Assembly: GCA_003252535.1 (NCBI GenBank)
Contig: QKDN01000020.1
Location: forward strand, 1-64,000
From: Campylobacterota bacterium
GTDB taxonomy: Bacteria > Campylobacterota > Campylobacteria > Campylobacterales > Sulfurovaceae
Reading direction: 5' to 3'
DNA length: 64,000 bases
The notes under the pieces were generated by a model. The model was not told the origin of the DNA, ran no database searches, and saw nothing but the letters and a program-made list of their open reading frames with translations. Positions 59,858 through 60,128 of the stretch are shown piece by piece. The translations under genes were made by a program, and so were the position numbers. How positions within the stretch are numbered: position 1 is the first letter of the stretch; each line of letters opens with the position of its first letter.

Positions 59858-59863
59858 TATAAT
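59858..59863 (+). promoter_or_regulatory. promoter of the candidate antisense RNA
   Basis: TATAAT with a weak TTGTAT about 16 bp upstream (59836-59841). A start near 59870 would place the first bases of the RNA on the GCTAGTTGGGACAGG repeat. Confidence 0.5.
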
Positions 59864-59869
59864 ACCGCT

Positions 59870-59910
59870 AGTTGGGACAGGCAGAGAGCTGGAACTCTCT
59901 GCAAGTTTTT
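59870..59910 (+). ncRNA. candidate antisense RNA (type I antitoxin)
   Basis: A predicted RNA of about 40 nt from the promoter at 59858 to an intrinsic terminator. The stem is GCAGAGAG (59881-59888) with CTCTCTGC (59895-59902), loop CTGGAA, then AAGTTTTT. It is fully complementary to the 3' end of the mRNA for the 20-aa peptide on the other strand, including its last codon. The arrangement is that of an antitoxin RNA. It is inferred from sequence only. Confidence 0.5.
59881..59910 (+). terminator. strong intrinsic terminator
   Basis: Eight-base-pair stem GCAGAGAG/CTCTCTGC, six-base loop and a run of five T. It would end the candidate antisense RNA and could also stop transcription from the antiporter gene. 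Confidence 0.8.
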
Positions 59911-59971
59911 AATATGCTTTTGTCACTAATAATAGCAACAAAAGGATAACAATTAGAATGGTGGTTCGCAT
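59909..59971 (-). CDS. 20-aa hydrophobic peptide (candidate type I toxin)
   Basis: The minus strand reads MRTTILIVILLLLLLVTKAY, a single transmembrane segment with charged ends. GAGGAG lies 6 nt before the ATG, a near-ideal ribosome binding site that argues for real translation. A TACTAT box at 60062-60057 could start an mRNA near 60050. That RNA would carry GCTAGTTGG and TGGGACAGG in its leader and the matching CCTGTCCCAACTAGC at its 3' end. Short hydrophobic peptides with such foldback mRNAs and an antisense RNA are type I toxins, as in Hok and the AapA family of Helicobacter. It is too short for ordinary gene finders. Confidence 0.55.
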   Translation of the reverse strand: MRTTILIVILLLLLLVTKAY

Positions 59972-60128
59972 TGTTACTCCTCGTTAAAGGCTGACCCTGT
60001 CCCACCTCACGCCTCACAATGCAATCCCATATCCAATCGCCAACTAGCTTGCAATGATAGTAACGAAAAAATATCGAATTATGAAAAAGTATTTCATATT
60101 GACATATTATAGATCAATCTGGTCATGC

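Follow-up and report, generated by a model that had tools for sequence, protein, structure and literature searches.

The closest known analogues of the element reported here are the ibs toxin genes of Escherichia coli, which are opposed by Sib antisense RNAs. In ibsA-E of strain MG1655, the mRNA consists of a leader segment, a hairpin at the start codon, a hairpin inside the open reading frame (ORF), a 3' hairpin and a 3' end that pairs back to the leader, and the sib RNA begins on the opposite strand, 35-40 nt beyond the stop codon of ibs. We analysed a stretch of 64,000 nucleotides from a Campylobacterota bacterium of the Sulfurovaceae (assembly GCA_003252535.1, contig QKDN01000020.1, positions 1 to 64,000; here called the window), in which positions 59,858 to 60,106 hold an element with the same order of parts and a predicted antisense 5' end about 42 nt past the stop codon. 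Judged by conservation and predicted folding, the locus very probably represents a genuine multicopy type I toxin-antitoxin family of the ibs/Sib plan. In the source genome (designated G000), this family is linked to DNA repair genes by its promoter.

The predicted toxin mRNA of about 185 nt lies on the minus strand. The features of the element, in the direction of its transcription and followed by those of the antisense gene, are:

60086-60106, minus strand: recA-type promoter box TATGTCAATATGAAATACTTT, which starts 44 bp upstream of the toxin -10 and agrees with 16 of 17 specified bases
60057-60062, minus strand: putative -10 element TACTAT of the toxin mRNA, position conserved in aligned copies, predicted start at about 60049-60050
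60040-60048, minus strand: mRNA 5'-end segment GCTAGTTGG, which pairs with the 3' end (alignment columns 3-9 with 199-205, with compensatory changes)
60012-60022, minus strand: leader segment GCATTGTGAGG, which could cover the start codon by pairing with ACAATGC in the minimum-energy fold
59995-60005, minus strand: leader segment GTGGGACAGGG, with which the 3' end can pair as an alternative (CCTGTCCC); it hardly varies among the 41 copies
59977-59982, minus strand: Shine-Dalgarno sequence GAGGAG (AGGA or AAAGG, Shine-Dalgarno-like, in aligned copies)
59946-59977, minus strand: start-codon hairpin TAACAAT...ATTGTTA, paired in 99.1% of cells across the 41 copies and largely invariant, with 0 compensatory pairs
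59909-59971, minus strand: toxin ORF of 20 amino acids, MRTTILIVILLLLLLVTKAY plus stop codon, with an intact frame in 40 of 41 full-length copies
59917-59944, minus strand: ORF-internal hairpin, changes on both sides in 5 of 8 pairs
59881-59902, minus strand: hairpin in the 3' untranslated region (UTR) of the mRNA, which is also the antisense RNA hairpin on the plus strand; 5 of its 7 stem pairs show compensatory changes, and the loop varies
59867-59881, minus strand: mRNA 3' segment CCTGTCCCAACTAGC, which pairs with the leader
59858-59863, plus strand: antisense -10 TATAAT (extended -10), present in nearly all 41 copies, in most with an ATG-like extension
59867-59910, plus strand: antisense RNA (putative antitoxin) of about 40-44 nt with predicted ends, hairpin and U run, complementary to the mRNA 3' UTR and stop codon

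Beyond the order of elements, the locus and ibs/Sib have in common a hydrophobic peptide of 18-20 amino acids ending in (A)Y and the presence of several copies, some of them in tandem. They differ in that the locus has K or R near the C-terminus, a recA-type promoter box, a longer leader whose extreme 5' end enters the closing helix, and an antisense RNA predicted to be about 40 nt long as opposed to 140 for Sib; a common UTR sequence was not seen. When Ibs A-E were compared with a profile of the locus peptides, they scored 11.5-16.8 bits, values reached by 0-13 of 2000 composition shuffles and 5-102 of 2000 pattern-preserving shuffles. Rfam gave no family at gathering score, Sib was not among the matches up to E 10, and no family of value in Rfam, Pfam or NCBIfam matched the element. 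Given the failed Rfam test and an antisense length that is a prediction, we do not claim membership of Ibs/Sib; by analogy, the module would work like it.

Other type I systems resemble the locus in some traits. The aapA/IsoA modules of Helicobacter pylori (PMC6733600, PMC8322730) also belong to Campylobacterota, exist in several copies and have start-region hairpins and 5'-3' long-distance pairing, which the locus shows as well. However, AapA1 has 30 amino acids with flanking charged parts (PMC8309996) as compared to 18-20 here, and IsoA1 pairs with the aapA1 mRNA in an extended duplex, whereas the antisense RNA of the locus lies on the 3' UTR. In txpA/RatA of Bacillus subtilis (PMC4147584), overlap with the antitoxin is likewise confined to the 3' end of the toxin mRNA and RNase III acts on the pair, but the toxin has 59 amino acids, the overlap is about 75 nt and the host is Gram-positive. 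The tisB/IstR-1 pair of E. coli (PMC7708055) comprises a type I membrane toxin made upon DNA damage, as may be the case for the locus; it differs in its 29-amino-acid toxin with charged residues and in its antitoxin geometry.

A DNA search of the source genome yielded ten matches at nine loci, and the same nine loci, with none further above threshold, were recovered by a covariance model. With this model, strong copies were also identified in genomes from two families of the order, eight from this family and seven from a second one; one relative (G054) carries 12 copies, including a three-copy tandem array. A search of genome contigs with a 14-base pattern, which was too short and returned mostly chance matches, contributed a Sulfurimonas copy (L104) as the only real one among the matches checked, and we accordingly take the lineage to be Campylobacterota of Sulfurovum and Sulfurimonas type. 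The alignment used below consists of 41 full-length copies from the source genome and its relatives, covering two Campylobacterota families, and the same plan is seen in these and in the nine genome copies. A mostly hydrophobic frame of 18-20 codons is intact in all of the aligned copies except one (L003, with a 4-nt deletion). The peptides read M-xxx-IIIVILLLL..TKAY or ..ERLY, with the hydrophobic core present in every intact copy, while codons 2-5 are hypervariable. The 20-amino-acid hydrophobic frame behind GAGGAG that an initial annotation had pointed out is thus present and maintained in relatives, and the search for the same arrangement in related genomes, which that annotation had proposed, located it in both families. 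Three further copies are broken, by an insert with inverted ends (G000 C1:49753-50272), by an insert (G001:C196) and by a deletion (G172:C77). In the first of these (L009, G000:C1:49400-50700), the insert lies near the 3' end of the toxin copy; it measures about 250 bp, has the inverted ends CTAATAACCCTATRCACT and resembles a MITE (miniature inverted-repeat transposable element). Remnants of the module in truncated form (L207, L208, L222, L232) are evidence of decay once the frame was lost.

The complementarity of the mRNA ends, likewise noticed in the initial annotation, is well above expectation. A perfect 9-bp helix between the ends was obtained in 5 of 20,000 mononucleotide shuffles, and the fold of the 187-nt mRNA (-73 kcal/mol, z -5.65) was equalled by 0 of 200 dinucleotide shuffles. 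When the structure was placed on the 41 copies, 97.0% of cells were paired (93.9% in shuffles, 36-49% when slid), and 57 cells were doubly changed as compared to 17.7 in shuffles. With the ORF hairpin included, 27 copies gave 97.9% paired cells against 92.4%, with 13 pairs changed on both sides. Compensatory changes are found in the end helix, the ORF hairpin and the 3' hairpin. For the end helix, 137 of 164 cognate pairs could form, while swapped partners gave a mean of 101 and a maximum of 124 (0/10,000), and the signal is strong in G054 alone (1/10,000). This helix contains 22 GU pairs when read on the mRNA strand and 2 on the antisense strand, so that the fold under selection is that of the mRNA. 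As the start-codon hairpin shows almost no variation, covariation neither supports nor opposes it.

Two leader segments overlap in their partner, as both use the bases CCCA; GCTAGTTGG dominates the predicted folds and GGGACAGG is the alternative. GGGACAG:CTGTCCC was considered as the main closing helix and rejected in favour of the 5'-end helix on grounds of structure conservation and folding. Some observations weigh against a foldback-controlled mRNA as we describe it: the GGGACAG pairing is interrupted by an A-C mismatch in 9 of the 41 copies, end-helix covariation is weak in the source genome alone (24/32 vs 21.2; 207/10,000), and the element contains no separate intrinsic terminator for the toxin mRNA. 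Activation by 3' trimming is unsupported as well, since equilibrium folding shows no release of the start codon after trimming; its predicted accessibility is alike low in the full-length, trimmed and nascent mRNA.

On the opposite strand, the TATAAT reported in the initial annotation is conserved, mostly with an ATG-type extension, and the toxin -10 varies more. The accompanying claim of a strong terminator held in part: the hairpin and U run are there, but with 4-5 U the terminator is moderate, and by itself not above chance (1 found, 1.2 expected). By sequence, the locus contains a putative antisense gene complementary to the toxin mRNA, with a promoter of its own. The stem of the antisense hairpin covaries and its loop varies. 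In G000 and G054, each antisense RNA is predicted to pair best with the 3' region of its own mRNA rather than that of any paralogue, although the comparison of L001 against L003 is close (-96.8 and -96.2). The variable hairpin sequence is predicted to keep paralogous toxin-antitoxin pairs separate.

The antisense RNA appears to be about 40 nt long, which would leave the ORF uncovered. As the U run is short, it may also run on, and this counts against our assignment. In that case the same module would produce an RNA that covers the ORF and the ribosome site and blocks translation as Sib does. Sib RNAs have the same starting point and reach to 42-46 nt upstream of the ibs start, and a second subfamily, described below, lacks the U run altogether. 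On the other hand, TAAAA past the stop codon (U4 on the antisense strand) is invariant in 41 of 41 copies, and the sequence shows no evident second terminator where Sib RNAs have their 3' end. We therefore regard such read-through as a possible but less favoured version of the mechanism.

The promoter box is a 21-bp dyad, TATGTCA-N3-TGACATA (also written TATGTCA-N3-TGACATATTTT), of which the form TATGTCAATATGAAATACTTT is found once in the window where 0.01 would be expected. It precedes all eight aligned copies of the source genome and the broken C1 copy, at a distance of 44-45 bp from the -10 in every case, with a weaker form (13/17 bases) in L002, L006 and L007; further copies with the box are L172, L225, L226, L230 and L231. 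The same box with the 44-bp spacing precedes recA in 20 of the 21 related genomes assessed (L282-L303). Counting the dyad on both strands gave 16-30 boxes in each of six genomes and 0 for the reversed pattern. Genes downstream of a box are recA, ruvA, radA, radC, recQ and comM, and in the source genome also a putative DNA repair radical SAM protein (TIGR03916) and REP-associated transposases. In L272 and L278, the recA-type box lies in the promoters of REP-associated tyrosine transposase genes. Since box and spacing are common to the toxin and recA promoters, toxin transcription is probably tied to a DNA repair regulon. One observation speaks against a general role of this link: the box is absent from 28 of the 41 copies, all of them in other genomes. 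The -10 of these copies is closer to consensus (5.4 vs 4.5 matches, p 9e-5).

A candidate regulator with a CI-type helix-turn-helix (HTH) and an S24 peptidase is encoded in nearly all tested genomes, often with the box upstream. The protein of the source genome (L358, G000:C67:82593-82805) and its relatives (L340-L364) have the PF00717 S24 domain, an AG cleavage-like site and a GESM serine; the box is also found with shorter paralogues that have the HTH only. A LexA/CI-like S24 protein probably controls the box, and we lean towards DNA damage as the signal that switches the toxin on. In E. coli, tisB is under a LexA box, unlike the dyad at the locus. The box could instead mark a competence or general recombination regulon, with the toxin answering to that state. 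comM, radA and recA, which are also behind the box, are competence genes too, and a box centre near -48 suits an activator. However, ruvA, recQ, the putative DNA repair radical SAM protein and the S24 regulator of the self-cleaving type also carry the box and point to DNA damage, which makes the competence explanation doubtful.

That the element is a structured pair of non-coding RNAs with an incidental short ORF is highly improbable. Selection on the peptide is only moderate by the ratio of nonsynonymous to synonymous changes (pN/pS 0.53-0.79), and RNA structure spans the ORF. Since this structure constrains the ORF sequence too, a modest pN/pS may be expected. The coding reading is favoured by length differences of the ORF that, apart from L003, are whole codons, by the Shine-Dalgarno spacing, by the hydrophobic core and by K or R at position -3 and Y or F at -1 in 41 of 41 copies, specified by several codons. 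Moreover, a weak match of the model led to a second Ibs-like subfamily with another RNA sequence, in which the same peptide type is kept (e.g. MRILIIIILLLIIFTIRCW). It has TGCATG...CATGCA ends, a TATAAT-like antisense promoter and no U run after the hairpin, and is found in several genomes (L249-L256), including the source genome (L255, G000:C75:10367-10526, MRVLYIIILLLVILTTQCR). Further Ibs-like ORFs with a Shine-Dalgarno sequence and a 3' hairpin were seen in other families (L233 in G304, L235 in G353, L220 in G107:C17), and the leader of L233 has a terminator-like hairpin with TTTTTTT.

A MITE or a mobile repeat of the REP (repetitive extragenic palindromic) type whose inverted ends mimic a foldback, as nine dispersed copies, a 9-bp inverted repeat and tandem copies in a relative might suggest, is highly improbable, because such an element would have inverted repeats at its ends and no coding capacity, whereas here two promoters outside the repeats are conserved as well, the frame and the internal hairpins are maintained, GU pairs favour one strand, and searches of viral contigs, plasmids and phages gave 0 copies of the module. 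Relatives with preserved repeats and a broken frame, which the initial annotation had named as the sign of a MITE, are thus not the rule. Its proposal of a type I pair with a foldback mRNA is borne out at the level of sequence, with the refinements that the closest analogue is ibs/Sib, that the family is multicopy and that the toxin promoter carries a recA-type box.

We propose that the minus strand gives rise to the mRNA for the 20-amino-acid membrane peptide. In the full-length transcript, the 3' end pairs with the 5' end, as conservation shows, and encloses the start-codon, ORF and 3' hairpins; the closed fold would block translation. The plus strand would yield the short RNA from its strong extended -10 promoter. 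This RNA, fully complementary to the 3' UTR and stop codon and having its first bases in common with the mRNA leader, would compete for the mRNA 3' end, probably leading to RNase III cleavage by analogy with RatA (PMC4147584). DNA damage may raise toxin mRNA above antitoxin through the self-cleaving LexA/CI-like regulator, and the peptide may then target the inner membrane like Ibs, which it resembles.

A literature search for type I toxins and Sulfurimonas gave no match, although earlier listings of Ibs homologues of the phylum could not be checked. The ibs/Sib plan recurs here in a different phylum with RNA sequences that are unrelated, which allows common ancestry to be weighed against convergence. 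The 41 natural copies form a test set for foldbacks, start-codon hairpins and variable loops that separate paralogous pairs. LexA has been reported absent from Campylobacter and Helicobacter (PMC2390758, PMC5665897), and the lineage studied here could therefore show an SOS-type response in Campylobacterota; in Bacteroidetes, non-canonical LexA proteins were found in 2021 (PMC8565304). The box predicts that the toxins and recA are switched on by DNA damage through the S24 regulator. On balance, the evidence inclines us to think that Campylobacterota of the Sulfurovum and Sulfurimonas type have a previously undescribed SOS-like regulon with an S24 regulator, which may have recruited an Ibs-like toxin family, in the source genome at all nine of its copies.
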